In this document: piece by piece, positions 5,065 to 38,834 of the stretch
Layout of the letters: each line of letters starts with the position of its first letter
How positions within the stretch are numbered: position 1 is the stretch's first letter
From: Chromatiales bacterium
GTDB lineage: Bacteria; Pseudomonadota; Gammaproteobacteria; Chromatiales; Chromatiaceae
Assembly (NCBI GenBank): GCA_028280505.1
Contig: JANQLO010000001.1
Span: forward strand, 1 to 40,031
Length of the DNA stretch: 40,031 nt
Direction: 5' to 3'
Made by a program: the position numbers and the translations under genes
Notes under the pieces: generated by a model
Database searches by the model: none
What the model was told of the DNA's origin: nothing
Seen by the model: only the letters and a program-made list of their open reading frames with translations

Positions 5065-7791
5065 CTAGTCGCCCTCGCGACCCGCCGGCAACTCAAAAAT
5101 AAAGGTAGCACCTTTCCGCTCGACACTTTCGACCCAAATGCGCCCCCCCAGATGCTCGACGATCCGCCGGCTGATCGGCAGCCCGAGGCCGGTACCGATC
5201 GGTTTGTCCTCGCCACCGCTCGCCTGGCGAAACTTCTCGAAGATACTTTCCAGATCGGCGGGCGCGATGCCCGGGCCGTTGTCCCGAACGCTGATCCGAT
5301 AACGGTCCTTTGAGCGGGACAGGGTCACACCGATTCGACCGTCACGATCGGGCGCGTATTTCACTGCATTCGATAAGAGATTTACCAGGACCTGCATCAA
5401 TCGATCGGTATCGCCGGTAACGACACAGGGGTTTTCCGGAAGCGCGCGTTCGAGTCGGACCCCCTTTTCACTGATCAACTGTTCCGTCACCGCCAGGGCC
5501 TGTTCGATCAGCACGCCGAGGTCGACGGCATCGTCGCGCCATTGGACATGACCCGATTCGATCTTGGCCAAATCCAGCACCTGGTTGACCAGACGCGACA
5601 AACGATTGGTCTCGTCGACGATGATGCCGAGAAAACGCCGCCGCTCATCGAGGGCCACCTTGGGATCGTCGTAGAGGATTTCCGAAAAGGCACGGATCGA
5701 CGCCAATGGCGTGCGTAACTCATGCGTGACCGACGACATGAAATCGTCCTTCATGCGATCGATCTCCTTGAGCTGCTCGTTTGCCGTTTTCAACTCGGCG
5801 GTCGCGGCTTCGAGTTCCCGTGATTTTTGTTCGAGTTCGTGACTGTAGGCACGAATCTGCGAGGCCTCGTCGAGGATATGCAACACCTCGTCCAGACCCA
5901 GCGTTTCCTCGGCGGTCACCGAGGCCACCATCACCCGCGCAGAGGCGCTCCCGATTGCGCCGGCGAGCAGTGTCTCGGCGAAATGCACCGTCTCCGCATC
6001 GGCCGGCAGATCTTCCGGGACTTGCACGTCGCGCCGCGCCGCAAAGGCCGTGAAGGCACGACGTGCCCGTGCGTTGCCGAGAAAACGCTCTGCCAGACCG
6101 AGCAGTTGCTTGATTTCGGCCTTACCACGCCACAAACGAATGCCGATCGGTCGCTCGTGTTTCAGCGCGTCGACAAACAACGTCGCCTGCGTTGCCTCGT
6201 GTACATTGGGCGGGCGCCACAGCGACAGGAACAGATAACCGCCGATGTTGAACGTCATGCTCCAGAACAGGCAGTGGGTGATCTCGTTCATACCGTCGAG
6301 ACCGAACAAGGCCTGCGGTCGTAACAGTTCGATGCCGAAGGGGCCATACAGCAGAAAGTCCATCGGCAACCATCCGGATTTGGCGAACGACGGCAACAAC
6401 AATGTGTAAGCCCAAACACCGAAGCCCATCAGCAGCCCCGCCATGGCACCGCGGTGCGTGCCGCCCCGCCAATACAGGCCGATGATCATCGCCGGCGCGA
6501 ACTGGGCGACCGCGGCGAAACTGATCAGGCCGATGCTCACCAGCGCATAGGCCCCGCTGGCAAAACGAAAGTAGAGATAACCCAACAACAGAATCACGAT
6601 GATGGCGCCGCGTCGAATCCGCAGCACCAACTGACCCAGATCGGCATCGGGCGGGAGCCGCTTCCAGCGGCGCAGCAGAAACGGCATCACCAGATTGTTC
6701 GACACCATGGTCGACAGCGCGATGGTTTCGACAATCACCATGCCGGTCGCCGCCGACAGGCCGCCGATGAAGGCGAACAGCGACAACATCGCCTGATCGT
6801 GCGCCATCGGCAGCGTCAACACGAAAGTGTCGGCATCCACACCGGTACCCGCGAACGACAACTGACCGGCGAGCGCGATCGGAATCACGAAGATATTGAT
6901 CAGAAAAAGATACAGCGGAAACATCCAGACCGCGCGGCGCAGATGATCCTCGTCGCTGTTCTCGACCACGGCGACCTGAAACTGGCGCGGCAGCACCATG
7001 ACCGCGAGCGCCGCGAGCAAGGTCAACGCGAACCAGTTCTCGTAACCGCCCATGCCCTCGCCGACCAGCGGGTTCAAATAACCGGCCCGTTCGGCCTTGT
7101 TGAACAAATCGGCGAAACCGTCGTGAAGGAAGTAGGTCGCGAAAACGCCGACCGCAATAAAGGCGAGCAGCTTCACGATGGACTCGAACGCAATCGCCGC
7201 GACCATGCCTTCGTGGCGTTCGCTGGCATCGAGATGCCGGGTGCCGAACAGAATCGTGAAGGCCGCCAGCACCAGGGCCACGTAAAGCGCCGTGTCCTGC
7301 AACACGGGCATCGTCGTCAACAGCGTGTCGGTCTGCACCTCCGGTCCGCTCTGCAATATGGTGAAGCTGCGCGCAATGGCCTTGAGCTGCAAGGCGATAT
7401 AGGGCACGACGCCGATCACGGCGATTACGGCCACGACACCGCCAAGGCGTTGACTCTTGCCATAGCGCGAGGCGATGAAATCCGCGATCGATGTGATGCG
7501 CTGGCTCTTGCTCACACGCACCATCTTCAGCAACAGGGTGCCCCACAATGCGGCGATCAGGGTCGGGCCCAGGTAAATGGGCAGAAAACCGGCACCGGTC
7601 GCCGCGGCCCGGCCGACGCTGCCGTAGAAGGTCCACGCGGTGCAATAGACCGCAAGCGACAAAGCATAGACCGTCGGGCTGGCGACCACCGACCGATTCC
7701 GGTCCGCCCGCCGATCGCCCCAATAGGCAATCGCGAACAACAGACCGAGATAAAGAAAGGAGTAAAGAACGATGAACGGCGTAGTCAGCAT
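5065..7791 (-). CDS. Na+/solute symporter-histidine kinase hybrid (CbrA/CrbS type)
   Basis: 908 aa. Residues 1 to about 500 form a multi-helix sodium:solute symporter (SSS) domain, including the motif YCTAWTFYGSVG. A cytoplasmic linker follows, with a coiled coil at about 645-680. The kinase core contains the H-box SSVTHELRTPLASIRAF with His690, an N-box (VLVNLLSNAVKYA), a G1 box (RDNGPGIAP) and a G2 box (GTGLGLPIS). The family comprises sensors that couple transport of amino acids or acetate to phosphorelay, for example CbrA and CrbS. No separate PAS domain is obvious in the linker. The order in the operon is small membrane protein, this kinase, a response regulator and a CBS-nucleotidyltransferase. 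The ligand is unknown; an amino acid or acetate is a guess from the family. Confidence 0.93.
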   Translation of the reverse strand: MLTTPFIVLYSFLYLGLLFAIAYWGDRRADRNRSVVASPTVYALSLAVYCTAWTFYGSVGRAAATGAGFLPIYLGPTLIAALWGTLLLKMVRVSKSQRITSIADFIASRYGKSQRLGGVVAVIAVIGVVPYIALQLKAIARSFTILQSGPEVQTDTLLTTMPVLQDTALYVALVLAAFTILFGTRHLDASERHEGMVAAIAFESIVKLLAFIAVGVFATYFLHDGFADLFNKAERAGYLNPLVGEGMGGYENWFALTLLAALAVMVLPRQFQVAVVENSDEDHLRRAVWMFPLYLFLINIFVIPIALAGQLSFAGTGVDADTFVLTLPMAHDQAMLSLFAFIGGLSAATGMVIVETIALSTMVSNNLVMPFLLRRWKRLPPDADLGQLVLRIRRGAIIVILLLGYLYFRFASGAYALVSIGLISFAAVAQFAPAMIIGLYWRGGTHRGAMAGLLMGFGVWAYTLLLPSFAKSGWLPMDFLLYGPFGIELLRPQALFGLDGMNEITHCLFWSMTFNIGGYLFLSLWRPPNVHEATQATLFVDALKHERPIGIRLWRGKAEIKQLLGLAERFLGNARARRAFTAFAARRDVQVPEDLPADAETVHFAETLLAGAIGSASARVMVASVTAEETLGLDEVLHILDEASQIRAYSHELEQKSRELEAATAELKTANEQLKEIDRMKDDFMSSVTHELRTPLASIRAFSEILYDDPKVALDERRRFLGIIVDETNRLSRLVNQVLDLAKIESGHVQWRDDAVDLGVLIEQALAVTEQLISEKGVRLERALPENPCVVTGDTDRLMQVLVNLLSNAVKYAPDRDGRIGVTLSRSKDRYRISVRDNGPGIAPADLESIFEKFRQASGGEDKPIGTGLGLPISRRIVEHLGGRIWVESVERKGATFIFELPAGREGD

Positions 7792-24500: not shown

Positions 24501-25469
24501 CTGAGCAAAGTCGAACGCATACGTGAACTGCACCAGTTGCTATCGACACGGCGACATCCCGTCCCCCTGGACGAAATCCGCCGCGAACTCGAGTGCTCCG
24601 ACTCCACCGCCCGCCGCACGGTGTACTACCTGCGCGATCAACTTTCTGCGCCGCTGGAATACGATCGCGAGCGAAACGGCTGGCATTACACGAACGAGCC
24701 GGAACAACGCTACGAAATCCCCGGTCTCTGGTTCAACCCCGAAGAACTCTATGCCTTGCTGGTTTCGCACCATCTACTCAACGAACTGCAACCCGGCCTG
24801 CTAAGCCCGTATATCGAACCGGTCAAAGACAAGATCGAAGAACTGCTCGAAAAACACAGCGGCACCAAACCGGACATCGCGCGCCGCGTGCGCATCTTGC
24901 AGATCGCCGCAAGACCAACTGATCTGAAACAGTTCCGCCGTTTCGCCGATGCGCTGCTCGAACGCAAACGCGTGCGTGTGCTCTACCGCGGTCGTGAACG
25001 CGACGAACTCACCGAACGCGTGATCTCACCACAACGCCTGGTCTACTACCGCAGCAACTGGTACCTGGACGCTTGGTGCCATCTACGCAAGGCCTTGCGT
25101 AGCTTCTCGCTCGACCGACTGCACCTGGCCTATCTGCACGACGACAGCGCCAAGGAAATCGACGACGACATCCTCGACAAACACTACGCCACTGCCTACG
25201 GCATCTTCGCCGGCGTACCCAAACACAAAGCGGTTCTGCATTTCAGTTCCGATGCAGCACGCTGGGTCGTGGACGAACAATGGCACCCGCAACAAGAAGG
25301 CAAAGTGCAAACCGACGGCAGCTACCGATTACAGGTGCCCTACAACGACGATCGGGAATTGGTTATGGATATCTTGAAGTATGGACCCGAGGTTCAGGTG
25401 ATGCGGCCGAAAAGGCTAAGGGACAAGGTCGAGGCGAGGCTGAGGGCTGCACTCGCACAATACAAATGA
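24501..25469 (+). CDS. WYL-domain transcriptional regulator, apparent CTG start
   Basis: 322 aa if started at CTG 24501, giving SKVERIRELHQLLSTRRHP, the usual first helix of the winged helix-turn-helix in these regulators. The HTH continues with LDEIRRELECSDSTARRTV. A WYL domain covers about residues 145-225 with RSNWYLDAWCH, and a C-terminal WCX extension ends the protein. WYL domains bind nucleic acid or nucleotide ligands, and many such regulators sit beside CRISPR-Cas or other defence genes. Here the cas operon starts 0.5 kb downstream on the same strand. The next in-frame start, TTG 24537, would cut into the HTH, so CTG with GGAGG is preferred. Alternatively, one base is missing and the ATG at 24488 was the original start. 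Confidence 0.88.
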   Translation: MSKVERIRELHQLLSTRRHPVPLDEIRRELECSDSTARRTVYYLRDQLSAPLEYDRERNGWHYTNEPEQRYEIPGLWFNPEELYALLVSHHLLNELQPGLLSPYIEPVKDKIEELLEKHSGTKPDIARRVRILQIAARPTDLKQFRRFADALLERKRVRVLYRGRERDELTERVISPQRLVYYRSNWYLDAWCHLRKALRSFSLDRLHLAYLHDDSAKEIDDDILDKHYATAYGIFAGVPKHKAVLHFSSDAARWVVDEQWHPQQEGKVQTDGSYRLQVPYNDDRELVMDILKYGPEVQVMRPKRLRDKVEARLRAALAQYK

Positions 25470-25477
25470 ATTCGTTG

Positions 25478-25500
25478 GCCTGGTCAGTTTTTGACTAGGC
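25478..25500 (+). terminator. stem-loop after the WYL gene
   Basis: GCCTGGTCA-gtttt-TGACTAGGC can form a 9-bp stem with one G-U pair, starting 8 bases after the WYL stop. There is no T tract behind it on the plus strand, so it is a weak or Rho-assisted terminator candidate. It also lies downstream of the convergent antitoxin gene. Confidence 0.45.
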
Positions 25501-25575
25501 AGTACGGTTAGAGTGATCCCATAGCCGACGAACCGAGGAGAGCACCAGGGGAATGAGCCAATGCTGCCAAGAAAA

Positions 25576-25902
25576 TTACTTTGGCCGATGCGCCTCCATG
25601 TATGCGCGCAAAAGTTCGTTTATGCGCGTCTGGTATCCTTTGCCCAAGCCCTTGAACCAATCAAGCACATCGGTATCCAAGCGCAAAGTAATCTGCTGTT
25701 TCCCGGTTTGCGGCTTCAGCCCTTTGCGAACAATGGCCTTGGCGAACTGTTCCGGCGTCAATTCGGGGATCTCCGAAAAATCGATCGATTCATCCCGGAT
25801 ATTGTCGGACGTTTCACCGGCATTATCCGATTCATTGAAAGAAGAGTGCTGTTTCACTTTTGCTCGCTTTTCGCGCCGAGATAAACCGAATAGTTTCATC
25901 AT
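25576..25902 (-). CDS. orphan BrnA-like antitoxin (DUF4415)
   Basis: 108 aa from the ATG-ATG pair at 25902; the frame is open to 25926. The C-terminal part (KQQITLRLDTDVLDWFKGLG, then GYQTRINELLRAYMEAH) is the ribbon-helix-helix DNA-binding domain typical of BrnA antitoxins. The middle, with IPELTPEQFAKAIVRKG, is also family-like. The N-terminus is lysine- and arginine-rich. No BrnT toxin gene is seen on either side: WYL lies convergent downstream and csb1 divergent upstream. BrnA binds its own promoter, and here that promoter region is the short gap before csb1, so it might influence cas transcription. Whether it is a toxin-less relic or a recruited regulator is open. Confidence 0.8.
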   Translation of the reverse strand: MMKLFGLSRREKRAKVKQHSSFNESDNAGETSDNIRDESIDFSEIPELTPEQFAKAIVRKGLKPQTGKQQITLRLDTDVLDWFKGLGKGYQTRINELLRAYMEAHRPK

Positions 25903-25936
25903 CTTCGCCAGTGTACCCAAACACAAGGCTATGCTG

Positions 25937-25963
25937 CGGCAATAAGCCGGGCCTCATTGAAGG
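25937..25963 (+). repeat. degenerate CRISPR repeat upstream of csb1 (pseudo-repeat)
   Basis: GGCCTCATTGAAG at 25950-25962 is identical to 13 consecutive bases of the array repeat. Before it, AGCCG (25945-25949) also matches, with one repeat base (T) missing between the blocks. CGGC at 25937-25940 pairs with GCCG at 25946-25949 around a 5-base loop, exactly as the inner stem and loop of the repeat do. About 23 of 28 repeat positions are kept, in the same orientation as the array and the cas genes. The element ends 30 bases before the csb1 start, so it lies in the promoter or 5' leader of the cas operon. No second repeat flanks it. Confidence 0.75.
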
Positions 25964-25993
25964 GACGTTTTACCAAAGTACAGGAGACACAAG

Positions 25994-27196
25994 GTGCAAC
26001 TCGATATTAATTTGCTGAAACAGGCAGTTAGCGGAAATGCAGCCGCCTTTCGCTGTATCACGGAATACCAACCGGCCGGCGGCCTTGGAGACAAAGTGTT
26101 TCCACCAACATACGAGGGCGGCCAATACGCTACCGAGGACCGGGTCGACCCCGAAACGGGCGAAGTATCGCCCTGTGTACTTTTGGATTCGGTCCAGTCC
26201 CAAGCCAACCGTATGGAACTGGCCTTGCTCGATGCACATCGCGCAGGAAAGGTTGAGTTACCTCTGATAGTCGCAAACTTCGACCAAGAATCACTGCTCA
26301 AAAAGTTTTCGGTAAGCAGCCTGGAAGCACCGCATCGGGTGGCTGATGCCCTCTTCAGAGACAGCCTTCTCGGTGATGTGATGTTCCGAAAATCCGACAA
26401 AGGGCGCGTTCTCGATTACGCCGATATCCGTAATGCAACCGATATTTTCGGACTTTGCCCGACCGCACTGGTATTTGGCCTTTGGGATTCGACGGGTCCG
26501 CGTGGCGGCTTGGGCGCAAAATTCCAGCGCGCGCTCGTATCCGAAATGATCGGTATGAATGCGGTCCAAGGTAGCAAAACGAGCAGTCGTATTGATCCAG
26601 CACAGATTACGGTAGGCGCAGGCACGCTCTACACGCGTAAGCTAGAAAAAGACAATGCGCCTGACTGGACACTCGATAGTGCATCAGGCAGCAAGAAACT
26701 CGGCAAAGACGGCAAGCCTTCAGAAGCCAACCACGGCAACGTCACACCAAGCTTCGTTGACGGCGGTTTCACGATTTCGAAGGCCGTTCAGACCACGGTG
26801 CTCTCGCTGGCGGCACTTCGCAGACTGCGTTTCCCGCTTAATGGCGAAGCAGCTTCTAAACCAGACGTCGATATTGCCGCGCGTACAACACTCGCTGCTC
26901 TCGGCTTGGCTGCAGGCGCAATGTCGCGCACCGACGGCGACCTGCGTTCGCGTTGCCATTTGTTTGCTCAAGAAGCACCTGTATGGGAGTTATTGAACGA
27001 GCCCGGCCAAACACCCGTCCAATACGAGTTGAACAGCACAGCGGCAATTGGATTGCTGAATGACGCGATTCAAATGGCAAGAGACGCAGGATTACCGTGG
27101 GAGGGGGAGATCGAGCTGACACCCTCTGACGAGCTGGTGGAGCTGGTTCGTCGAAGCCAGGAATTAGCCACTACTTCGGCTGAGGCAGACAAGTAA
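25994..27196 (+). CDS. csb1: type I-G CRISPR-associated protein Csb1 (Cas7 family)
   Basis: 400 aa, the GSU0053/Csb1 family, the Cas7 backbone subunit of type I-G (formerly I-U) Cascade that coats the crRNA spacer. Family-like features are EYQPAGGLGDKVFPPTY and DSVQSQANRMELAL near the N-terminus, ALVFGLWDSTGPRGGLGAKF in the middle and FTISKAVQTTVLSLAALRRL later. The GTG start at 25994 has AGGAG seven bases upstream. It is the first gene of csb1-csb2-cas3-csb3, and its last base overlaps the csb2 start. A degenerate CRISPR repeat lies just before it. Base composition is clearly lower in GC than the genes left of 25 kb. Confidence 0.93.
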   Translation: MQLDINLLKQAVSGNAAAFRCITEYQPAGGLGDKVFPPTYEGGQYATEDRVDPETGEVSPCVLLDSVQSQANRMELALLDAHRAGKVELPLIVANFDQESLLKKFSVSSLEAPHRVADALFRDSLLGDVMFRKSDKGRVLDYADIRNATDIFGLCPTALVFGLWDSTGPRGGLGAKFQRALVSEMIGMNAVQGSKTSSRIDPAQITVGAGTLYTRKLEKDNAPDWTLDSASGSKKLGKDGKPSEANHGNVTPSFVDGGFTISKAVQTTVLSLAALRRLRFPLNGEAASKPDVDIAARTTLAALGLAAGAMSRTDGDLRSRCHLFAQEAPVWELLNEPGQTPVQYELNSTAAIGLLNDAIQMARDAGLPWEGEIELTPSDELVELVRRSQELATTSAEADK

Positions 27197-28791
27197 TGCT
27201 TGTATTGGCCATACGCTACCTGAACGGTTGGGCGATGGCGGCAGCAGACGGGGCCAAGAAAGAGCAAGCGGAATGGCCGCCACACCCGAGCCGTGTATTC
27301 ATGGCCTTAGCCGCCGCCTGGTTCGAGACAGGTGAAGATCCAGCGGAAGGTGACGCATTGCGCTGGCTAGAAGCCGAACCGCCACCCGATATTGCGTGCA
27401 CGGATGCCGAGATACGTCAAAGCACTGACCGGCCGACAATAAGTTACGTGCCGGTTAACGACTCACGAGTCGGGCGAAAACCACCAAAGAAAAACGATCT
27501 CGGCAAACTAAAAGAAGCCGGACTCGCCGCCCTACCGGAGTTTCGTCCACGCCAACCGCGCAGATTCCCCGTAGCGATTCCGCACAATCCTGTTGTTCAT
27601 CTGATCTGGAACAACACGCCGAACGAGAAACATCGAGAAGCCTTGCAACAACTCGCCACGAAAGTCATTTGTGTCGGGCATTCCGCATCTTTGGTGCAAC
27701 TGTGGGTCACCAACGCATCACCCGGAGCAATGTGGACAGCCAGCGAGGGTGTGACGCCACTCCGTTTGCGCATTCCTTCGAGGGGATACCTCGATGCGCT
27801 ACAGCGACAGCACAACCGAGCTGACGTCATTGCCTATGCCGACATGACTGAGCAAATCAAAACATTAAAGGGCAAGGAGAAGACAAAGATGAAAACAGCC
27901 ATTTCTGAACGTTTCGGCGAAAACCCTCCGCGCTCTTCGCGACCACAACCGGGGCTCTTTATTGGTTATAAACGTGCGACAGCCGCTGACAATACAGACT
28001 GTTCCCGAAGTATTTTCGACAACAATCTGCTGGTTTTTACTTTGCTGGGCAAACGCCCGTCGTTACCCGCAACACTCAAGCTCACCGAGGCGCTGCGAGG
28101 CGCTCTAATGTCAACCTGTGCGCGCATCGCAGACGAGACATTACCGGAATGGTTAAGCGGCCACACCACTGATGGCAAACCCACCAAACAAGCACACGTT
28201 GCCCTGCTGCCCTTACCCTTCGTGGGATCAAAACATGCGGATGGCCGTATCCTAGGCTTGGGTATCGCGTTACCCCGTGAGCTCGACCCGGAAGACAGCG
28301 CGCACTGGCTTGGTCAATTCTTGTATGAGGAGAATGGATTACCGCGTGAACTAAAGCTGTTTGCAGGTCGATGGCTAGAGTCACGGCTTACATTGGAGGT
28401 GCGAGAGAAACCACCTGTTAATTTAAACCCGAACACATGGACACAAGCCGCAAACATGTGGGCCAGTGCCACACCGGTAGTCCTCGACCGTCATTTCGAT
28501 GGTGACGATAAATGGGAACATGCCGCTGAGAGCATAAAAAAAAGCTGTGAGCGCATCGGTCTACCGCGTCCACGTGAGGTAGTGCTACACCCCGTATCAT
28601 TGATCGAGGGCGTACAACACGCACGTGAATTTCCATCTCTCGTCCGCAAACAAGATGGCGGCCGCCGTCAGCATACGCACGCCGTATTGATTTTCGACCA
28701 ACCCGTACAAGGCCCGGTGATCGTCGGAGCAGGTCGATTTCGAGGCTACGGTCTGTTTAGACCGACAAATACGGTCCAGTCATATGACTGA
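27196..28791 (+). CDS. csb2: type I-G CRISPR-associated protein Csb2 (Cas5-Cas6 fusion)
   Basis: 531 aa, the GSU0054/Csb2 family. The N-terminal RAMP half corresponds to Cas5 (LAIRYLNGWAMAA, then WPPHPSRVFMALAAAWF). The C-terminal half corresponds to Cas6, with the glycine-rich RAMP loop GAGRFRGYGLFRP near the end. It should both cap the crRNA 5' tag and cut the repeat hairpin, which fits the absence of a separate cas6 in the locus. His residues in TKQAHVALLPLPFVGSKH and RRQHTHAVLIF are candidate general bases. The ATG overlaps the csb1 stop by one base, and the 3' end overlaps cas3 by 8 bases, so translation is coupled. Confidence 0.92.
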   Translation: MLVLAIRYLNGWAMAAADGAKKEQAEWPPHPSRVFMALAAAWFETGEDPAEGDALRWLEAEPPPDIACTDAEIRQSTDRPTISYVPVNDSRVGRKPPKKNDLGKLKEAGLAALPEFRPRQPRRFPVAIPHNPVVHLIWNNTPNEKHREALQQLATKVICVGHSASLVQLWVTNASPGAMWTASEGVTPLRLRIPSRGYLDALQRQHNRADVIAYADMTEQIKTLKGKEKTKMKTAISERFGENPPRSSRPQPGLFIGYKRATAADNTDCSRSIFDNNLLVFTLLGKRPSLPATLKLTEALRGALMSTCARIADETLPEWLSGHTTDGKPTKQAHVALLPLPFVGSKHADGRILGLGIALPRELDPEDSAHWLGQFLYEENGLPRELKLFAGRWLESRLTLEVREKPPVNLNPNTWTQAANMWASATPVVLDRHFDGDDKWEHAAESIKKSCERIGLPRPREVVLHPVSLIEGVQHAREFPSLVRKQDGGRRQHTHAVLIFDQPVQGPVIVGAGRFRGYGLFRPTNTVQSYD

Positions 28792-31756
28792 TCTAACCGC
28801 AAAGGAATTCAGCAGTTTCTTCAATGAACTCTGGGGCTATGCACCATTCGCATGGCAACAGAAACTGGCCGAACGTGTTTTATCCAACGAAGAATGTCCC
28901 TGGCCTCAAGCGATCGCACTACCAACCGCAGCCGGTAAAACAGCCTGCATCGACATCGCTGTATTCGCCCTGGCCGCACAAGCACAGAGAATGCTACAAG
29001 GCGACACTGTTACGGCACCTCGGCGAATCTTTTTTGTCGTGGACCGCCGTATCATTGTCGATGAGGCCTTTGAGCGAGCGCGGAAACTTGCCAATGCGCT
29101 AAGGTCCGCTGATGACAGCATTCTAAAAGTGGTTGCGGACGCCTTGAGATTTTTAGCGCGCGGCGAATCGGATAGAGCAGAGGATGAACCTCCCTTAACT
29201 GTCCATACCTTGCGTGGGGGCATGTACCGTTCGGAATCTTGGGCACGCAACCCTTTGCAACCGACAGTCGTTGCCTCGACGATTGATCAATTGGGTTCGC
29301 GACTACTTTTTCGTCCCTATGGACGGAGTGCCAATATGGCGCCGGTCTACGCGGGCTTGATCGCCAACGACAGCTTGATCCTGCTGGATGAAGCACACTG
29401 CGCACAGCCATTCATGCAGAGCCTACAGGCCATTGACCGCTATCGGGCCTGGGCCGAACAACCGCTTAATCGCAGTTTTTACCCCGTAGTCATGTCGGCG
29501 ACACCACCGAATGGACTGAACATCTTCAAAGACGAATCGGGTGAACCAGAAGATCCGGACCATCCGCTGGGACGGCGGCAATTAGCCTGCAAACCGACAA
29601 CGCTCGATTTGGTAACCAAAGCAAAAGGAAAAAACGCAACGCGGATTTTGGCAAAGGAACTGGCAAAAGCGGCGGAAAAGCTGATCAATGAACAACGGCG
29701 TGCCGTTGTCATCTTTGTTAACCGTGTGGCAACGGCGCGAGCAACACACAAGCAGCTCGCTGATAAGTATGGCGATAGCGTCACTCTGCTGACCGGCCGG
29801 ATGCGTGGAATAGACAAAGAGACAACAGCGAAAGACAAGCTGACGATACTATCGTCTGCCAATTCGACAACGCGTCAGCTCGATGAACCCCGCTTCGTCG
29901 TCGCGACCCAAACACTTGAAGTCGGCGCCGACCTTGACTTCGACGCATTGGTCACCGAATGCGCCAGCCTGGATGCATTGCGACAACGCTTCGGCCGCTT
30001 GAATCGCATGGGGCGCGATATCGAAGCCTGCGCCGTCATACTCATGCGTGGCGACCAGGTTAATAAAAACCATGAAGACCCCATATACGGACCCGCACTA
30101 GCCAATACATGGGCATGGCTCAATGAACAAATGGGCGAAGGTAAAACCATCGACTTTGGCATTAAGTACATCAACGCACTTCTACCCCAGGATGAAGATC
30201 TGCTCGCCTCTTTGAGCGCCCCGGCTAGAGATGCCGCGATCATGTTACCAGCACATATCGATTGCTGGGCACAAACCGCACCTCAACCTGTCCCATCTCC
30301 AGATGTTGCACCTTTTCTTCGCGGCCCTAGCTCAGGTACAGCAGACGTCCAGGCTTGTTTACGTGTCCACTTGAATCTCGATGCAATCAAACTCTGCCCA
30401 CCAACCTCCAGCGAGACGTTACCAGTACCTATCGGGATTTTTAAGCAATGGTTAACCGGAAACCTGATTAGCGACACAAGCGGTGATATTGAAGGTGCAG
30501 ACTCGGAATCTGATTCGATTCAGGAAAAACGCCCGATTGGGAATACCATAGGTAACGTTCTACGCTGGCGCGGCAAGGAAACGCAGTTAAGCGATTTCAC
30601 AAACGATCCGACAGCCATTCGACCTGGCGATGTCGTTGTTGTATCTGTCGATGCAGCGAACTTAGCTGTATTGGGCGATATACCTGCTGTGGAAGAAAAC
30701 AACACTCCTGTACTCGATATCGGTGATCAAGCCTACCTAATCGCACGTGCAAAACCCGTACTGCGCTTGCAGCGTGATTTGCTCTCTTGTTGGCCCAAGG
30801 GATCGGCTAAAGAACAAGCCCTTTCCTTGTTGACAACAGACAACGACAACCCAGAGGGGTTAAACCCAGAAGACCTACTTGCGGCGGTACGGAAGATGCT
30901 GCAAGTACTAGTGCAGGAAACAGAAGGCATGGGGGAATTCGGTTGGCTGAACAAAGCGGCATATCATCTGAATCAAGAATCAAAACGTAAAAGCTTCTCC
31001 CGAAACATCCATCAGATTGACGAAGGCCATCTAATCATCATCGGACAGAACTTGGTTCCAGAACTCCTGCATCAAGCGGATACATTCAGCAGTGATGACG
31101 ATGTCAACTCATCGGGAATGAGTAACAAGCAGGGGCAGCCAATCAAGTTACGTGATCACCTGCCCGGCGTGGAATCCTTTGCACGCCGGTTTGCCCAAGG
31201 TTGTGGACTTTCTGCAGAAATCACCGCCGCGGTAGCCAGAGCCGGGTTGCTACATGACTTAGGTAAGGCCGATCACCGTTTCCAATCATTGCTTCAAGGA
31301 GGAAACCGCTTTTTAGCCACAACAGAACCACTTGCCAAATCTGCGGCGATACCAAAAGATCGCCAGGCTTTTGAGCGCGCACGCGAAGCATCCGGGTACC
31401 CCGCAGGCGGCCGTCACGAATTATTGTCCATACGTTTGGCGCAATCGGCACCCGATCTGCTACCCAAAGAGCCCTGGCTCCAAGACCTGATCCTGCATTT
31501 AATTGCGAGCCATCACGGCCACTGCAGGCCATTTGCGCCTGTTGTTTTAGACGATGATGCGCCAACAACAACGTTGGCACTTCACGAGCAGTCCATGACA
31601 TGGACTGGAGCAACCAAGCTGGAAAGCCTGGATTCCGGCGTGGCACAGCGCTATTGGCGTTTGGTTCGGCGCTTTGGGTGGTGGGGGCTCGCATGGCTGG
31701 AATCTCTGCTCAGACTCGCCGACCACCGGCGCAGCGAATGGGAGCAAATGCAATGA
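28784..31756 (+). CDS. cas3: Cas3 helicase-nuclease with C-terminal HD domain (type I-G)
   Basis: 990 aa. SF2 helicase motifs lie in the N-terminal two-thirds: Walker A LPTAAGKTAC (about residue 46), DEAH box ILLDEAHCAQPF, motif III SATPPNGL, motif V ATQTLEVGADLDFDAL and motif VI QRFGRLNRMG. The HD nuclease is at the C-terminus, with GLLHDLGKADHRFQ and ASHHGHCRPFAP. This helicase-HD order, reversed from the usual Cas3, is characteristic of type I-G. All catalytic residues I can check are present. It would unwind and degrade DNA after Cascade recruitment. It overlaps csb2 by 8 bases, and the csb3 ATG overlaps its stop (ATGA). Confidence 0.94.
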   Translation: MTDLTAKEFSSFFNELWGYAPFAWQQKLAERVLSNEECPWPQAIALPTAAGKTACIDIAVFALAAQAQRMLQGDTVTAPRRIFFVVDRRIIVDEAFERARKLANALRSADDSILKVVADALRFLARGESDRAEDEPPLTVHTLRGGMYRSESWARNPLQPTVVASTIDQLGSRLLFRPYGRSANMAPVYAGLIANDSLILLDEAHCAQPFMQSLQAIDRYRAWAEQPLNRSFYPVVMSATPPNGLNIFKDESGEPEDPDHPLGRRQLACKPTTLDLVTKAKGKNATRILAKELAKAAEKLINEQRRAVVIFVNRVATARATHKQLADKYGDSVTLLTGRMRGIDKETTAKDKLTILSSANSTTRQLDEPRFVVATQTLEVGADLDFDALVTECASLDALRQRFGRLNRMGRDIEACAVILMRGDQVNKNHEDPIYGPALANTWAWLNEQMGEGKTIDFGIKYINALLPQDEDLLASLSAPARDAAIMLPAHIDCWAQTAPQPVPSPDVAPFLRGPSSGTADVQACLRVHLNLDAIKLCPPTSSETLPVPIGIFKQWLTGNLISDTSGDIEGADSESDSIQEKRPIGNTIGNVLRWRGKETQLSDFTNDPTAIRPGDVVVVSVDAANLAVLGDIPAVEENNTPVLDIGDQAYLIARAKPVLRLQRDLLSCWPKGSAKEQALSLLTTDNDNPEGLNPEDLLAAVRKMLQVLVQETEGMGEFGWLNKAAYHLNQESKRKSFSRNIHQIDEGHLIIIGQNLVPELLHQADTFSSDDDVNSSGMSNKQGQPIKLRDHLPGVESFARRFAQGCGLSAEITAAVARAGLLHDLGKADHRFQSLLQGGNRFLATTEPLAKSAAIPKDRQAFERAREASGYPAGGRHELLSIRLAQSAPDLLPKEPWLQDLILHLIASHHGHCRPFAPVVLDDDAPTTTLALHEQSMTWTGATKLESLDSGVAQRYWRLVRRFGWWGLAWLESLLRLADHRRSEWEQMQ

Positions 31757-32709
31757 TGGACAACAGTAGCGAGCAAAAGACGATAAGTCTGACTTTTTCA
31801 GGTATCGATGGAGGTAACCCATTAGGCTTTCTTGTTGCCCTGGGCACCCTTGGTCTTGCTACTGAGAAATGGTCGATGGCACAGCTACTTTGGCAGGCCA
31901 CGGACGGTTGTTGGCGTCCAACATTGACTGGTTGTCCCGTCGATGAAGACACTTTTCTCGATAATCTATATAAAGCCCTAATGGCAGCTTCGAATGAAGC
32001 CTTTAGCCTGAGCAAGAAGCTTCCCTTCAATGCCACAGAATTCAAACAAGGCTTGATAGAGGCTCAATCCGACTGTAGCGCAACACACCGCCGCACCTGC
32101 GATTTTCTTGCGGCATTCGGCACCGAAATGTATCCGGATGAAAAAACCGGGATATTCCAAGATTCAAAGTTTCGCATGGTGCGCAGTGGCGACAGCGCTG
32201 GCCAAGGCCTACCTGTTTACGCCGAAAACATCCGCAACAGCACAACCATTGAACATTTACGGCGCACCCTTTTTCGCACTTGGGATTACCAAGACCCTAA
32301 GGCCAACCTTAATCTGCGCTGGGACCCGATCGATGACCAACGCTATGCCTTGCGTTGGCGCGATCCAAGCAAATCCACCCTGAATGACGGCCCCGGCACC
32401 ATGATCGGCGCTAATGGCCTTGCCATCGAAGCACTACAATACTTCCCTACCTTTATTACCAACGGAAGCACGGCAAGTACGACCGCATTTTATCGAAGCA
32501 GGCGCCGAGAAGTGTTTATGACATGGCCGATTTGGACCGTACCGCTCGATATACAGTGCATCAAATCTCTACTCAGTCACCCCGCTATCGTAGAGGAGGA
32601 AACAAATAGAGAAGAGCTGAATGCGGCAGGTATTGCTGAGGTATATCGTAGCCAACGTATTCAGCAGAATCAGTACTACAGCAATTTTGCACCAGCCCAT
32701 CCTGTTTAG
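31753..32709 (+). CDS. csb3: type I-G CRISPR-associated protein Csb3 (Cas8-like small variant)
   Basis: 318 aa from the ATG at 31753, which overlaps the cas3 stop and follows GGGAG. I assign it to Csb3/Cas8u2 mainly by position (between cas3 and the cas4-cas1 gene) and by the N-terminal TFSGIDGGNPLGFLVALGTL, a block typical of this family and of Csx17. Other visible blocks are WDPIDDQRYALRWRDPS and TMIGANGLAIEALQYFP. It would be the large-subunit substitute of the type I-G effector, responsible for PAM recognition. Sampled 60-base lines here are only about 40% GC, the lowest in the cas operon. A 77-bp gap separates it from the adaptation genes. Confidence 0.8.
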   Translation: MMDNSSEQKTISLTFSGIDGGNPLGFLVALGTLGLATEKWSMAQLLWQATDGCWRPTLTGCPVDEDTFLDNLYKALMAASNEAFSLSKKLPFNATEFKQGLIEAQSDCSATHRRTCDFLAAFGTEMYPDEKTGIFQDSKFRMVRSGDSAGQGLPVYAENIRNSTTIEHLRRTLFRTWDYQDPKANLNLRWDPIDDQRYALRWRDPSKSTLNDGPGTMIGANGLAIEALQYFPTFITNGSTASTTAFYRSRRREVFMTWPIWTVPLDIQCIKSLLSHPAIVEEETNREELNAAGIAEVYRSQRIQQNQYYSNFAPAHPV

Positions 32710-32739
32710 CTTTAACGGCTTAGAAGCAATAAAAGCACC

Positions 32740-32770
32740 TTGGTTTCGCTGAGATAAATCGCGGGACCAA
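32740..32770 (+). promoter_or_regulatory. strong hairpin immediately before cas4-cas1
   Basis: TTGGTTTCGC (32740-32749) and GCGGGACCAA (32761-32770) form a 10-bp RNA stem with two G-U pairs and an 11-base loop, ending 16 bases before the cas4-cas1 ATG. No T tract follows. It could attenuate read-through from csb3 or limit translation of cas4-cas1. It does not resemble the CRISPR repeat. Confidence 0.5.
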
Positions 32771-32786
32771 CGAATTCAAGAACGCC

Positions 32787-34493
32787 ATGGACCAGGACAG
32801 TCAGCAGGAACTGCCGCTCCCGTTTCCCGAACTGGCCGAGGATTCTCCCTTGTTGCCGGCACGCATGGTCAACGAGTTCGAGTACTGTCCACGGTTGGCC
32901 TATCTGGAATGGGTGCAAGGCGAATGGGCCGACTCGGGCGATACCGTTGAAGGACGTCACACTCACCGTCGCGTAGACAAAAAGTCGGGGCAACTACCCG
33001 AACAAACCGACGACTTCGAGAAGTTCCATGCCCGATCGATCGAGCTGTCGTCCAACCGCCTCGGCCTGATCGCCCGGCTGGATCTGGTCGAAGGCGAAAA
33101 CGGCGAAGTCATACCGGTAGACTACAAACGCGGCAAACGCCCGCACGTAGCCAAAGGTGCCTATGACCCGGAACGCATCCAACTTTGCGTACAAGGCATG
33201 CTGCTGGCAGAGCATGGCTACCAATGCGATACCGGCATTTTGTATTTCGCCGCGTCGAAAGAGCGCGTGCGGGTCGAATTCGATGACGAGCTACGCAACC
33301 GCACCCTGTCGGCGATCAATGGCCTGCGCCTGATCGCCGCGGGTGGGCGCATGCCAGCGCCATTGGAGGACAGCCCCAAATGCCCACGCTGCTCACTCGT
33401 GGGTATCTGCTTACCCGATGAAGTCAACTTTCTGCGCAAGCCCGACAGCTCGCCCCGCCCCATGGCCGTCAGCCGCGACGAAGCACTGCCTTTATATGTT
33501 CAGGCCAATCGCGCCAAAGTGGCCAAGAAAGGTGAAACCCTCGAAGTTTCGGTCGAAGACAAAGCCGTAACCAGTATACGCCTGCTGGACGTGTCGCAAG
33601 TCGTGCTCATGGGCAATGTGTATGTCACGACACCCTGCCTGCATGAACTCATGCGGCGTGAGATTCCGATTTCCTGGCACTCCTACGGCGGCTGGTTTCT
33701 CGGGCACAGCGTAGGCCTTGGTCATAAGAACGTCGAGTTGCGCACGGCGCAATACAAGGCAAGTTTCGATGAAGCGACCTGTTTGAGGTTGGCCAAGACA
33801 CTGGTGCGTAACAAAATCCTGAATTGTCGAACACTGCTGCGACGAAACTGGCGGGGCGAGGAAGATGTTCAACCCTTGCTGGACGCACTCAAAGGCGATG
33901 CGCGAGGCGTCGCCCGCGCCGAGGATCAACAAACCCTGCTGGGTATCGAGGGCGCTTCCGCGGCCCGTTATTTCGGGGCGTTCGGTAATCTGATCAAACA
34001 GGAAAAGGATCCGCAAAGCTTTGTTTTCGACTTTGCTCGGCGCAAACGCAGACCGCCACCCGATGCGGTCAACGCCTTATTGTCCTACGCCTACACCGTG
34101 CTGGTGCGTACCTGGACGGTCACCCTTAGTGCAGTCGGCTTCGATCCCTATCGCGGCTTCTATCATCAACCGAGATACGGCCGGCCCGCGTTGTCGCTCG
34201 ACCTCATGGAGCCCTTCAGATCGTTGATTGCCGAATCGGCGGTAATCTCCGCTATCAACAATGGCGAGGTTCGGCCGGCCGATTTCATTACCGCCGGTGG
34301 TGGCGTGGCGCTGACCAGCGAGGGTAGAAAACGTTTTCTGGGCGTGATCGAGCGGCGCCTGGGTCAAGAGGTCACACATCCTTTATTCGGTTATCGCATC
34401 AGTTATCGACGCACCCTGGAAGTACAGGCACGACTGCTGGGACGTTTCCTGCTTGAAGATATCGACCACTATCCCGAATTCATCACACGGTGA
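32787..34493 (+). CDS. cas4-cas1: Cas4-Cas1 fusion, spacer-acquisition integrase
   Basis: 568 aa. Residues 1 to about 215 are Cas4, a RecB-like nuclease with an Fe-S cluster. It has a first Cys in EFEYCPRLAYLEW (Cys34), the nuclease motif VIPVDYKRGK, and further cysteines in CPRCSLVGIC. From about 225 onward is Cas1, with the first metal Glu in LLGIEGASAARYFGAF, the NALLSYAYTVL block, the His region in DPYRGFYHQPRYGRP, and the LSLDLMEPFR block with the last acidic ligand. Fusion of Cas4 to Cas1 is typical of type I-G and lets PAM trimming be coupled to integration. All catalytic residues appear intact, so adaptation should be functional. Sampled GC (57-62%) is higher than in the interference genes. 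The stop overlaps the cas2 region. Confidence 0.95.
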   Translation: MDQDSQQELPLPFPELAEDSPLLPARMVNEFEYCPRLAYLEWVQGEWADSGDTVEGRHTHRRVDKKSGQLPEQTDDFEKFHARSIELSSNRLGLIARLDLVEGENGEVIPVDYKRGKRPHVAKGAYDPERIQLCVQGMLLAEHGYQCDTGILYFAASKERVRVEFDDELRNRTLSAINGLRLIAAGGRMPAPLEDSPKCPRCSLVGICLPDEVNFLRKPDSSPRPMAVSRDEALPLYVQANRAKVAKKGETLEVSVEDKAVTSIRLLDVSQVVLMGNVYVTTPCLHELMRREIPISWHSYGGWFLGHSVGLGHKNVELRTAQYKASFDEATCLRLAKTLVRNKILNCRTLLRRNWRGEEDVQPLLDALKGDARGVARAEDQQTLLGIEGASAARYFGAFGNLIKQEKDPQSFVFDFARRKRRPPPDAVNALLSYAYTVLVRTWTVTLSAVGFDPYRGFYHQPRYGRPALSLDLMEPFRSLIAESAVISAINNGEVRPADFITAGGGVALTSEGRKRFLGVIERRLGQEVTHPLFGYRISYRRTLEVQARLLGRFLLEDIDHYPEFITR

Positions 34494-34945: not shown

Positions 34946-35014
34946 ATATCGAATGCGCCACCGCTCGCAAATGCGGTATTGCATATCGAGCAATCAATAG
35001 CTTACGGTTGGGCT

Positions 35015-38000
35015 GTGATCCACGGCTAACAGCCGTGGCCTCATTGAAGCATTGCAGGAAAGGTGTTTAGTCCCCTCGAATTGGGAGTGATCCACGGCTA
35101 ACAGCCGTGGCCTCATTGAAGCGCGGTTGCGATACCGTCAGGATTGCCGCCAGCCGCGCCGGGTGATCCACGGCTAACAGCCGTGGCCTCATTGAAGCTG
35201 GCGGTCTTGCCCGACCCCATGAACGCACCCAGGAGTGATCCACGGCTAACAGCCGTGGCCTCATTGAAGCGGGTATCCCGACAACATGACATGCGCCGGC
35301 AGTGACCGGTGATCCACGGCTAACAGCCGTGGCCTCATTGAAGCCGGGTGTGTACGACGCCAGTGCGGAAGGATTAGATCAGTGATCCACGGCTAACAGC
35401 CGTGGCCTCATTGAAGCTTATCGATGTCTGCGATGATCTCGAAGTCCTTCGTTGTGATCCACGGCTAACAGCCGTGGCCTCATTGAAGCGATCTCACGAC
35501 CCACACGGAACCCACGTACGCCAAAGTGATCCACGGCTAACAGCCGTGGCCTCATTGAAGCCGCAGAGGTGGCAATCGCCAAAGCCAAGGGAGAGGAAGT
35601 GATCCACGGCTAACAGCCGTGGCCTCATTGAAGCTACGCAATGGGCATGCGTCGCATTCGGATTCAAGCTCGTGATCCACGGCTAACAGCCGTGGCCTCA
35701 TTGAAGCACCAGGCACAGCAAAAAGAGTTTTGGTTAGATGACAATGTGATCCACGGCTAACAGCCGTGGCCTCATTGAAGCGGTGGAGCTTACGGCCCAA
35801 GTACAGCTTGGTTTCCGGTGATCCACGGCTAACAGCCGTGGCCTCATTGAAGCGAGATGCCTCTAGCCCGATTGGCGGAACGGTTCGTGTGATCCACGGC
35901 TAACAGCCGTGGCCTCATTGAAGCGTATCGCGAGATCGTCGAAGGCGAGACGGTTCCTGAGTGATCCACGGCTAACAGCCGTGGCCTCATTGAAGCCCTA
36001 GCGGCATAGTTGTCCCACGAGGTTCGATCAATGTGATCCACGGCTAACAGCCGTGGCCTCATTGAAGCATTGAAGCCTCGCCGCCCTCTGTGACCGTCGG
36101 CGATGTGATCCACGGCTAACAGCCGTGGCCTCATTGAAGCAAGTCCATTGGATTCGCTGCGGTGGTCAAAGATCCGAAGTGATCCACGGCTAACAGCCGT
36201 GGCCTCATTGAAGCCAGATACCGCAGGGCGTTGTCGAGAAGATACTTGCCAGTGATCCACGGCTAACAGCCGTGGCCTCATTGAAGCGAGCACGGCCGCT
36301 TTGTAGCCGTAGAGCAAATCAACGGGTGATCCACGGCTAACAGCCGTGGCCTCATTGAAGCAAGATCTAAACACAGATCTTAAGGACCACGCGGCGGTGA
36401 TCCACGGCTAACAGCCGTGGCCTCATTGAAGCGGGAAAATCGATGGGATACGATGACACTTGAAGCGATGTGATCCACGGCTAACAGCCGTGGCCTCATT
36501 GAAGCAACAGCAGACTATGGCGGGCATGCCGCCGACACCTGGGTGATCCACGGCTAACAGCCGTGGCCTCATTGAAGCCGCATTCATGGTGTCGTCCCTG
36601 TCGGGTTAAAGAGTGTGATCCACGGCTAACAGCCGTGGCCTCATTGAAGCTGTAAGTACCGTTATCAGGATGGTTCGTTCGCGACCGGTGATCCACGGCT
36701 AACAGCCGTGGCCTCATTGAAGCTAATTAGAATTATTAGGTACATCTTTTTTATGTAAAACGTGATCCACGGCTAACAGCCGTGGCCTCATTGAAGCAAC
36801 GTTGCTGCGTAGCTATTCATTGCAATCAATTGGCTGTGATCCACGGCTAACAGCCGTGGCCTCATTGAAGCCTGGGCATTATTTGAGCGACTGGGAGAAG
36901 GGGCGAGGTGATCCACGGCTAACAGCCGTGGCCTCATTGAAGCTTCGGGTCAAGCTTTTTGGCGTTTTGGCCGGGGTCGGGTGATCCACGGCTAACAGCC
37001 GTGGCCTCATTGAAGCCTGGATCGTGGCACGGCTTTTCCAGGCAGCGCCGACGTGTGATCCACGGCTAACAGCCGTGGCCTCATTGAAGCTGCTGTATCG
37101 TCGTAATCCGCATACCATTCACTGGTGTGATCCACGGCTAACAGCCGTGGCCTCATTGAAGCGCCCAGAGGTTGTCCCCGAGGTTGTCCCTGAGGTTGTG
37201 TGATCCACGGCTAACAGCCGTGGCCTCATTGAAGCCCTGACATGCGTTCCTCCTATCAGGTCGCGTCGAACGGTGATCCACGGCTAACAGCCGTGGCCTC
37301 ATTGAAGCAGCAGCAAGGCGGTCTTGCCCATCGCCGGTCGCGCACCGGTGATCCACGGCTAACAGCCGTGGCCTCATTGAAGCTGCTGCGAGTCGGCCGG
37401 GCATGGCCTGCAGGTTTTGTGATCCACGGCTAACAGCCGTGGCCTCATTGAAGCAGCCAGACCACTAGGCTGCCGCTCGGCGTGGACTGAGTGATCCACG
37501 GCTAACAGCCGTGGCCTCATTGAAGCTTATTTTAATTATCAGTGTGCTCGTCCACTTCCATTGTGATCCACGGCTAACAGCCGTGGCCTCATTGAAGCAT
37601 TGCATACGTATCTGTAGCATACGATCTTCTTCCGGGTGATCCACGGCTAACAGCCGTGGCCTCATTGAAGCAGTTCGTTACCCCCTGGTTGGGTCATCGG
37701 TACCGGCAGTGATCCACGGCTAACAGCCGTGGCCTCATTGAAGCTGTACCGGCAAACTTCGGGGCTATAACAATCAATCACTGTGATCCACGGCTAACAG
37801 CCGTGGCCTCATTGAAGCGTCTTGGTAATACTCGAACAGCACGCGGTAAACCAGGTGATCCACGGCTAACAGCCGTGGCCTCATTGAAGCATGCCCGGGG
37901 TATGCATTTAATTTTTAATGTTTTATCGTGATCCACGGCTAACAGCCGTGGCCTCATTGAAGCTCTGCGGATTCAGATTCGGTAAATGCTTGTCGAATTT

Positions 38001-38834
38001 CGGTGATCCACGGCTAACAGCCGTGGCCTCATTGAAGCGAGATTGCGGACGATACCGGTCAGCACATTGGTGGAAGTGATCCACGGCTAACAGCCGTGGC
38101 CTCATTGAAGCGGTACTTGTTTACCGCCTTTCTCTTCCAACACGTAGTGATCCACGGCTAACAGCCGTGGCCTCATTGAAGCGCGAGTAGTCGGTAGATT
38201 CTCGCCGCCTCCCGAAGGAGTGATCCACGGCTAACAGCCGTGGCCTCATTGAAGCTTGTAACCTGTGTCTGCTGGTCATGCGGACCCCTTGCGGTGATCC
38301 ACGGCTAACAGCCGTGGCCTCATTGAAGCCACGATACGCACCGGGCCGACGGTATCAACCAACTCCGTGATCCACGGCTAACAGCCGTGGCCTCATTGAA
38401 GCGCTGTATTCCTTGCGTCGCTTGCGCAACATCCGGCGTGATCCACGGCTAACAGCCGTGGCCTCATTGAAGCATCGGGTCGTTCCAGAAGCGCTTCAGT
38501 GCCGTGTTGGGTGATCCACGGCTAACAGCCGTGGCCTCATTGAAGCCACGTCATTCGGGCGGACTTCACCCGGACCCGTAATGTGATCCACGGCTAACAG
38601 CCGTGGCCTCATTGAAGCGATCAAGTGACCGCGCCCACCTACGCCAAATTAGGGGTGATCCACGGCTAACAGCCGTGGCCTCATTGAAGCAAGCTGGAGC
38701 CACAGGGCGATGTATGTGCCGCTGGCGTGATCCACGGCTAACAGCCCGTGGCCTCATTGAAACGCCGCTCAAACGCTCGGATACGACATCATGGATACTT
38801 GATCCACAGCTAACCACCGCAGCTCGACTTAAAC
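35015..38834 (+). CRISPR. CRISPR array, 53 repeats and 52 spacers, type I-G
   Basis: The repeat is 36 bp, beginning GTGATCCACGGCTAAC and ending CCTCATTGAAGC, with an 8-bp stem CCACGGCT/AGCCGTGG and loop AAC. I count 51 repeats that look identical from 35015 to 38690. Repeat 52 (38727-38763) has one extra C and a changed end. Repeat 53 (38799-38834) is strongly decayed. Spacers are 35-40 bp, mostly 36-38. Decay at the right and the adjacent cas2 and leader at the left set transcription left to right, with the newest spacers near 35051. Cleavage by the Cas6 part of Csb2 at the 3' foot of the stem would leave a tag of about CTCATTGAAGC. The long array of perfect repeats and intact cas genes indicate an active system. 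Repeats read as fake proteins in other frames. Confidence 0.99.

Follow-up and report, generated by a model that had tools for sequence, protein, structure and literature searches.

The lone CRISPR repeat-like element that precedes csb1 in a Chromatiales bacterium is probably the surviving ψR2 of a former CreR-like mini-CRISPR, which lay between divergent brnTA genes and the type I-G cas operon. In related loci, two degenerate repeats (ψR1 and ψR2) flank a spacer, and the guide taken from this spacer partially matches an upstream site with a TTN PAM. Overall, 13 of 72 type I-G loci carry a unit that passed our guide-target test. Neither the two-repeat anatomy nor such a match is present in the window, i.e., the whole stretch of 40,031 nucleotides that was analyzed (contig C51 of a 4.65 Mb genome). 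From these sequence comparisons, we infer the transcription, processing, and repression described below, as well as the deletion itself. In the present study, loci and genomes are designated L### and G###, respectively (L086 corresponds to G408, and L078 to L023).

The pseudo-repeat and its neighborhood

The features of the window are as follows (position, strand, and description).

24537..25469, +, WYL-WCX transcription regulator upstream of the cas operon (PF13280, PF25583)
25479..25499, +, palindrome-like CCTGGTCAGTTTTTGACTAGG directly after the WYL gene, read from the sequence
25576..25902, -, brnA antitoxin gene, ORF intact, without a complete toxin partner (PF14384, E 2.5e-20)
25832..25957, -, ORF with a C-terminal piece of the BrnT toxin, N-terminal ~50 residues absent
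25900..25937, +, 38 nt sharing 84% identity with 25202-25239 of the WYL gene, ending where the pseudo-repeat begins
25934..25949, +, weak hairpin of the pseudo-repeat, possibly brnT codons (GLLPQ, - strand), from the covariance-model alignment
25950..25962, +, pseudo-repeat core GGCCTCATTGAAG, composed of GGCCTC next to the hairpin and 7 of the 8 bases of the array-repeat handle, 13/13 identity
25994..27196, +, csb1 (cas7g), first gene of the type I-G cas operon (TIGR02570, PF09617)
27196..34493, +, csb2, cas3g, Cas3-extension protein, and cas4g/cas1g (NCBIfam TIGR02165, TIGR02621, NF049934, NF049935)
35014..38763, +, CRISPR array, 52 repeats detected, repeat GTGATCCACGGCTAACAGCCGTGGCCTCATTGAAGC, in the orientation of the pseudo-repeat

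An earlier note on this DNA had reported 13 consecutive bases identical to the array repeat and in the same orientation, shortly before csb1. The identity was confirmed at 25950-25962 (+), and the placement also holds: the core ends 31 nt before the csb1 GTG at 25994, and the array is ~9.05 kb away. The genome contains 52 copies of the 13-mer, 51 in the array and the window core as the sole copy elsewhere; the opposite strand of the 4.65 Mb has 0 copies (a reversed-pattern control had 1). By simple arithmetic, ~0.14 copies per genome and ~1e-6 copies in the csb1 leader are expected by chance. A chance identity is favored by the shortness of the core and by hairpin bases that may be read as brnT codons. 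However, the estimate for the leader, the uniqueness of the copy in the genome, and its positional agreement with relatives make this explanation very unlikely, and we regard it as close to negligible.

A covariance model built from 29 type I-G repeats scored the pseudo-repeat at 19.3 bits (E 0.0028), the top match in window positions 1-34990, where the next best reached 11.2 bits. These 29 repeats are a selection sharing the common 3' half, diverged and 37-nt repeats being omitted, and the invariant columns of the model result from this choice. Only one repeat-like match was detected upstream of csb1 by this model, which agrees with the previous statement that a second pseudo-repeat is lacking; we consider this lack to be best read as a loss by deletion.

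The hairpin that had been described 5' of the core was borne out in part. CGGC (25937-25940), a 5-base loop AATAA (25941-25945), and GCCG (25946-25949) are present; however, the T between GCCG and GGCC of the array repeat is absent from the pseudo-repeat, which removes the pairs at the base of the stem. Folding of the 48-nt pseudo-repeat stretch predicts another structure with shuffle-like stability (z 0.11), versus a z of -3.4 for the array repeat. Since the stem and loop bases are readable as codons of the truncated brnT, the 4-bp hairpin may be fortuitous, and the alignment of the window BrnT with the BrnT of L109 extends to GLL, within the hairpin bases. The hairpin may be a true repeat stem or may consist of brnT codons.

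The genes next to the pseudo-repeat link the window to loci with complete units. The window BrnA is 61 and 56% identical to the BrnA proteins of L109 and L086, respectively, and brnA adjoins a complete CreR-like unit in both of these loci. The BrnT piece matches positions 54-77 of 77 of PF04365 (E 0.0011) with 19.7 bits, which is under the gathering cut-off of 34.5 bits. It aligns with the L109 BrnT from approximately residue 52, indicating that the N-terminal half was lost right at the pseudo-repeat. The 38-nt direct repeat (25202-25239 and 25900-25937) is identical at 32/38 positions, while the best of 60 codon-shuffled controls had 25/38; this direct repeat may be a trace of the recombination event that broke brnT. 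The copy at 25900-25937 is antisense to the brnT fragment.

CreR-like units in type I-G relatives

Relatives of csb1 were collected from named genome contigs (6 loci) and from genomes of the phylum, family, and class of the window, in which csb1 matches were obtained in 6/398, 31/210, and 20/369 genomes, respectively, the window's own genome being counted every time. The order-level set consisted of the same 210 genomes as the family-level set, and, for G840, G001, and G657, the family or order comprised 5, 1, and 1 genomes, respectively. Sixty-one type I-G loci were built, including the window; csb1 matches of G245, G435, G802, and G803 on short contigs and second matches in contigs already used were omitted. 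In 14 of the 61 loci, the sequence available before the csb1 match is shorter than 3 kb, and several loci of the fresh sample (see below) end at contig ends, so the absence of a unit there is not proof. Among the 43 loci with a called array, GGCCTCATTGAAG occurs in the array repeat of 34; the others have variants such as GGCTTCATTGAAGG, and two have doubtful repeats.

Candidate handles were all sites outside masked arrays that contain TTGAAG and differ from GCCTCATTGAAG by no more than 3 mismatches. This yielded 218 candidates, which perhaps include some unmasked array repeats; some of the 34 candidates in the fresh sample are array repeats of this kind. The guide was defined as the 18 nt past the 8-nt handle and was compared with the 500 bp upstream on both strands, a pass requiring a TTN PAM and at least 9/10 matches at guide positions 1-5 and 7-11. 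The handle length and the TTN PAM of type I-G were taken from excerpts of PMC9638904. Swapped guide-region pairs served as the control. An initial count of only three loci (the window, L079, and L109), based on scans of ~3 kb or 1.5 kb upstream of csb1, was discarded; these short scans were misleading because csb1 is not the first cas gene in other loci. The inspection of up to 12 kb upstream in 33 loci exposed most of the remaining units.

The guide-target test was passed by 12 of the 61 loci, while the control (21/8513) gives an expectation of ~0.5. The passing loci belong to 12 genomes, 10 genera, and 5 families. Since some of them had been noticed by eye before the test was written, a fresh sample was taken from 385 genomes of the class of G103, which provided 11 loci not seen before. 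One of these (L195) passed (control 1/803), and the remaining 10 had no match in the test. The passing loci of the main sample and the number of loci (of 12) that match at each guide position are listed below.

Passing loci: L077, L079, L086, L089, L092, L093, L096, L098, L103, L109, L112, L115
Guide positions 1-5: 12, 12, 11, 12, 12
Guide position 6: 4
Guide positions 7-11: 12, 11, 11, 10, 12
Guide position 12: 3
Guide positions 13-17: 11, 9, 11, 8, 7
Guide position 18: 5
Guide positions 19-30: 1-7, near chance from 19

Positions 1-5 and 7-11 were selected by the test, while positions 6, 12, and 13-17 were not. The gap at one in six positions agrees with the bases that are flipped out in type I Cascade. 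The PAMs at the 12 targets are TTC (4), TTT (4), TTA (3), and TTG (1). When the PAM rule was dropped, 13 extra matches were obtained from 12 candidates; the window match is among these, and one candidate contributed two array artefacts. The any-PAM control (142/4256) gives an expectation of ~7 candidates versus the 12 found.

All 12 units consist of ψR1, a spacer of 32-36 nt, and ψR2, with ψR2 lying 69-73 nt past ψR1 (73 in L195). ψR2 forms a hairpin of 6-8 bp in 12/12 units, with G-T pairs allowed, and retains CCTC. The terminal AAG has gone from ψR2 in 11/12 units; L079 retains it, as does L195 of the fresh sample. ψR1 retains the handle and has a diverged stem, in which at least 5 bp are still paired in 7/12 units by the count of our script. 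In 11/12 loci, the target is on the + strand and its start precedes the ψR1 core by 56-231 nt; the L077 target is on the other strand. The L195 unit (6402-6475) is on the strand opposite csb1, with the target between the csb1 match and the unit; therefore, a unit need not be co-transcribed with csb1. Thus, L195 and the 12 loci of the main sample share two features of CreR, namely, a ψR1-spacer-ψR2 arrangement of one array-unit length and a PAM-flanked, partially complementary target.

At the targets of six of the 12 loci, sigma-70-like promoters with 9 or 10 of the 12 consensus bases were detected. Their scores are weakly above those of shuffled sequences (5-44 of 200 mononucleotide shuffles equal them), and the other six loci have 7-8 consensus bases or none (L098). 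These scores lend weak support to the view that the target site near the cas promoter is a working promoter.

L078 and L079 have Csb1 proteins that are 93% identical; L079 carries a full unit and L078 has none, which hints at a turnover of the CreR-like unit. As judged by eye, L078 has a strong hairpin, CCGCGGTC-CCC-GACCGCGG, 123 nt before the csb1 Pfam match, and a weak resemblance to the repeat core follows it. This hairpin, which the repeat model did not recover at E values of up to 10, is possibly a second, independent relic. A 10.9-bit model match in L078, initially taken to be a hairpin preceding csb1, is csb1 coding sequence and was rejected.

The window copy as a probable relic of ψR2

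Six loci have a cas gene directly after ψR2 (a partial csb1 in L115), with ψR2 26-64 nt and ψR1 95-136 nt before this gene. The window core is 43 nt before csb1 and, thus, corresponds to ψR2 by position. In L109, in which csb1 is the first cas gene, and L086, in which cas3 is the first, the order is brnA-brnT (divergent), target, ψR1, guide, ψR2, and cas gene. Pfam identifies BrnT in both loci and BrnA in L109, and the BrnA of L086 was recognized by its 56% identity to that of the window. The truncation of the window BrnT at its junction with the pseudo-repeat supports the relic reading. One feature is against the assignment to ψR2: AAG, which ψR1 copies retain, is also retained in the window copy. 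No close relative was found to carry this exact locus in intact form, and the eight genomes of the same genus that were searched lack csb1; consequently, the deletion was not seen directly. Furthermore, 49 of the 61 loci, including the window, have no detected unit, and, thus, the ancestor may have had none.

We propose the following mechanism on the basis of the sequence comparisons. In an intact unit, Csb2 would cut both repeats and Cascade would take up the guide, which may bind the TTN-flanked upstream site through positions 1-5, 7-11, and, for the most part, 13-17. Such a match is presumably too short for normal interference and sufficient for binding, and may repress the promoter located there. 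The predicted outcome is the autorepression of cas, possibly together with repression of the gene on the divergent side. A deletion in the window would have eliminated ψR1 and its guide along with the target, the divergent promoters, and the N-terminal half of brnT, and would have fused the rest of brnT to ψR2; a single deletion from inside brnT into ψR2 may suffice.

A plain array fossil, or a stray repeat that was never part of a regulatory unit, may also leave a single partial repeat, and the 49/61 loci without a unit are compatible with this possibility. However, the pseudo-repeat has the same strand as ψR2 in related loci and approximately the same distance to the first cas gene, and it adjoins a toxin-antitoxin family that is also found in L109 and L086. 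We consider this explanation to be improbable.

The earlier note had also suggested that the element could be a hairpin in the leader of the cas mRNA that is cut by Csb2. Such cleavage would exert negative feedback without a guide. Csb2 is described as cutting 4 nt 3' of the hairpin base, leaving an 8-nt handle (PMC9638904, excerpts). The element is in the sense orientation in the csb1 leader and contains the cut-site sequence, CCTC followed by ATTGAAG, and L078 has its hairpin (-123) at approximately the same place by eye. However, the stem of the window copy is reduced to 4 pairs, and no stable repeat hairpin was found in its predicted fold. Moreover, the L078 hairpin has no handle and went unreported by the model, and matches of at least 18 bits lie in full-unit loci, except for the window, array repeats, and a contig-end repeat of L077. 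A leader hairpin is, therefore, distinctly improbable.

A working single-repeat CreR has a somewhat greater claim. Csb2 would cut the repeat, and the guide GACGTTTTACC would direct Cascade to a site near or far. The window shares the handle ATTGAAGG with ψR1 of L086, a locus in which the target is clear, and a single-repeat creA exists in Haloarcula hispanica (PMC8501985, excerpts). A near match, GACGTTTCACC, lies at 25808 on the + strand, inside brnA and 143 nt upstream of the core, with 9/10 seed matches. However, its PAM is TCG versus TTN in the 12 relatives (TTN was the search rule, and non-TTN matches are few), pairing is poor past position 11, and 156 of 4000 random 18-mers of the window (~4%) reach a similar match. 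For the guide proposed previously, starting with GGACGTTTTACC, no TTN-flanked target was detected in the upstream 500 bp, and none with an exact seed (positions 1-5 and 7-11, mismatches disallowed) in the 4.65 Mb genome. No sigma-70-like promoter or terminator-like site was found at the scan thresholds in 25400-26050, where the best site of a looser promoter scan had 7 of 12 bases, a repeat-like fold is not predicted, and only 31 nt separate the core from the csb1 start. On these grounds, we rejected a solo guide as the best reading of the window; we regard it as unlikely and prefer the relic reading, which is probable.

The features of CreR in the window copy are, accordingly, limited to a degenerate repeat beside the cas operon; a TTN-flanked target (within 500 bp or, with an exact seed, in the genome) and a second repeat were not found. 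The lack of a second repeat is not decisive, given the single-repeat forms of the related creA. The general proposal of a type I-G autoregulatory element was correct in kind, since repeat-like blocks are conserved in CreR-like units of 12/61 loci and 1/11 fresh loci, most loci having none, but it probably does not apply to the window copy. This class of explanation holds for some type I-G loci, and the window copy most likely represents a broken member. The lone repeat is explained as a relic, and the cas operon of the window has probably escaped CreR control. The WYL regulator is likely to be its remaining control.

Toxin-like neighbors and known crRNA-like systems

CreR is listed for types I-B, I-E, and V-A in excerpts of PMC13131331, and type I-G is not in this list. 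Our literature search retrieved no report of CreR in type I-G; most subscription papers were outside this search, and an earlier notice is possible. Similar to CreR, the units of type I-G relatives have degenerate repeats beside cas, a guide that is partially complementary to upstream DNA, and a PAM. Unlike CreR, several type I-G units adjoin a divergent BrnT or a small hydrophobic ORF, and the window copy has no target or ψR1. These units would add type I-G to the systems that seemingly regulate themselves through a crRNA-like guide. The Cascade of type I-G differs from other type I complexes in its way of holding the crRNA 5' handle (PMC9638904, excerpts). The 13 concrete guide-target pairs are open to testing.

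CreTA of type I-B, which consists of an RNA toxin and a crRNA-like antitoxin, resembles the type I-G units in having two degenerate repeats, with ψR1 being more diverged than ψR2, as well as guide pairing at 1-5 and 7-11 and a TTC PAM (PMC9458426 and PMC8501985, excerpts; the pairing and PAM of type I-B creA are given in the latter). In contrast to CreTA, the neighbors in type I-G are protein toxin families (BrnT and PIN) or possible membrane peptides. A toxin gene beside a crRNA-like unit would fit the logic of CrePA, in which the protein toxin CreP is under crRNA-like repression. However, CreP typically has a KilA-N domain (PMC12737573, excerpts), whereas the type I-G loci have BrnT or PIN_3, families with protein antitoxins. 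Solitary repeat units of phages, which produce Racr RNAs, are also lone repeats outside an array (PMC10651486, excerpts). Unlike these units, the window repeat is in the leader of a host cas operon, between the WYL regulator and csb1, and not in a viral genome. We set aside a phage or plasmid origin of the repeat: a tblastn search with Csb1 identified no phage record and a pattern-based search for viral contigs identified none. Csb1 is present on 23 plasmid records.

BrnT and BrnA adjoin the unit in L086 and L109; the target in these loci is between the divergent brnT and ψR1, and the same site also faces the cas side. DUF6364, which we take to be an antitoxin-like family, is encoded just upstream of the unit in L096 and L098, and PIN_3 just downstream in L096, placing the unit between the two. 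A CRISPR-controlled toxin is a natural hypothesis for the DUF6364/PIN_3 loci. A DUF6364/PIN_3-like pair was also noted by eye upstream in L089. Divergent hydrophobic ORFs of 20-75 aa lie upstream of ψR1 in 4/12 loci (L079, L092, L093, and L103), versus 20/3000 random positions and 0/47 csb1 upstream regions without a unit, in a test that was set after some of these ORFs had been seen. The hydrophobic ORFs of L092 and L112 (the latter not among the four) matched no family in Pfam. These divergent ORFs are a possible new family of toxin-like peptides. Protein toxin families and hydrophobic mini-ORFs are, thus, placed beside crRNA-like guides.

We tentatively speculate, as a possibility that we hold to be doubtful, that type I-G loci possess a combined CreR/CrePA device, in which one Cascade-guide complex between divergent promoters represses the cas operon and a toxin gene. 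Depending on the locus, this toxin may be the BrnT ribonuclease or a small hydrophobic peptide, with a third layout perhaps using a PIN toxin. The role of the toxin would be to guard the CRISPR system, and the cas operon would be autoregulated. In the window, one deletion may have disarmed the toxin and removed the regulator, leaving only the antitoxin gene whole; this joint loss is expected if the toxin would be set free when only the regulator is lost.

Several minor observations concern these neighbors and the WYL regulator. The hydrophobic ORF of L092 ends in LVVLLVAVLKHQ, and a hydrophobic segment in L089 starts a 101-aa ORF, the later part of which resembles BrnA. In 13 other loci (of 60), the 2.5 kb upstream of csb1 encode a WYL-WCX relative, that of L109 being a fragment. 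The palindrome CCTGGTCAGTTTTTGACTAGG that follows the WYL gene in the window is a possible operator of a remaining or second cas promoter. Palindromes such as CCTGTCANGTTTTGACAGGG were also noted by eye after the WYL gene in L001, L078, L079, L081, and L083.
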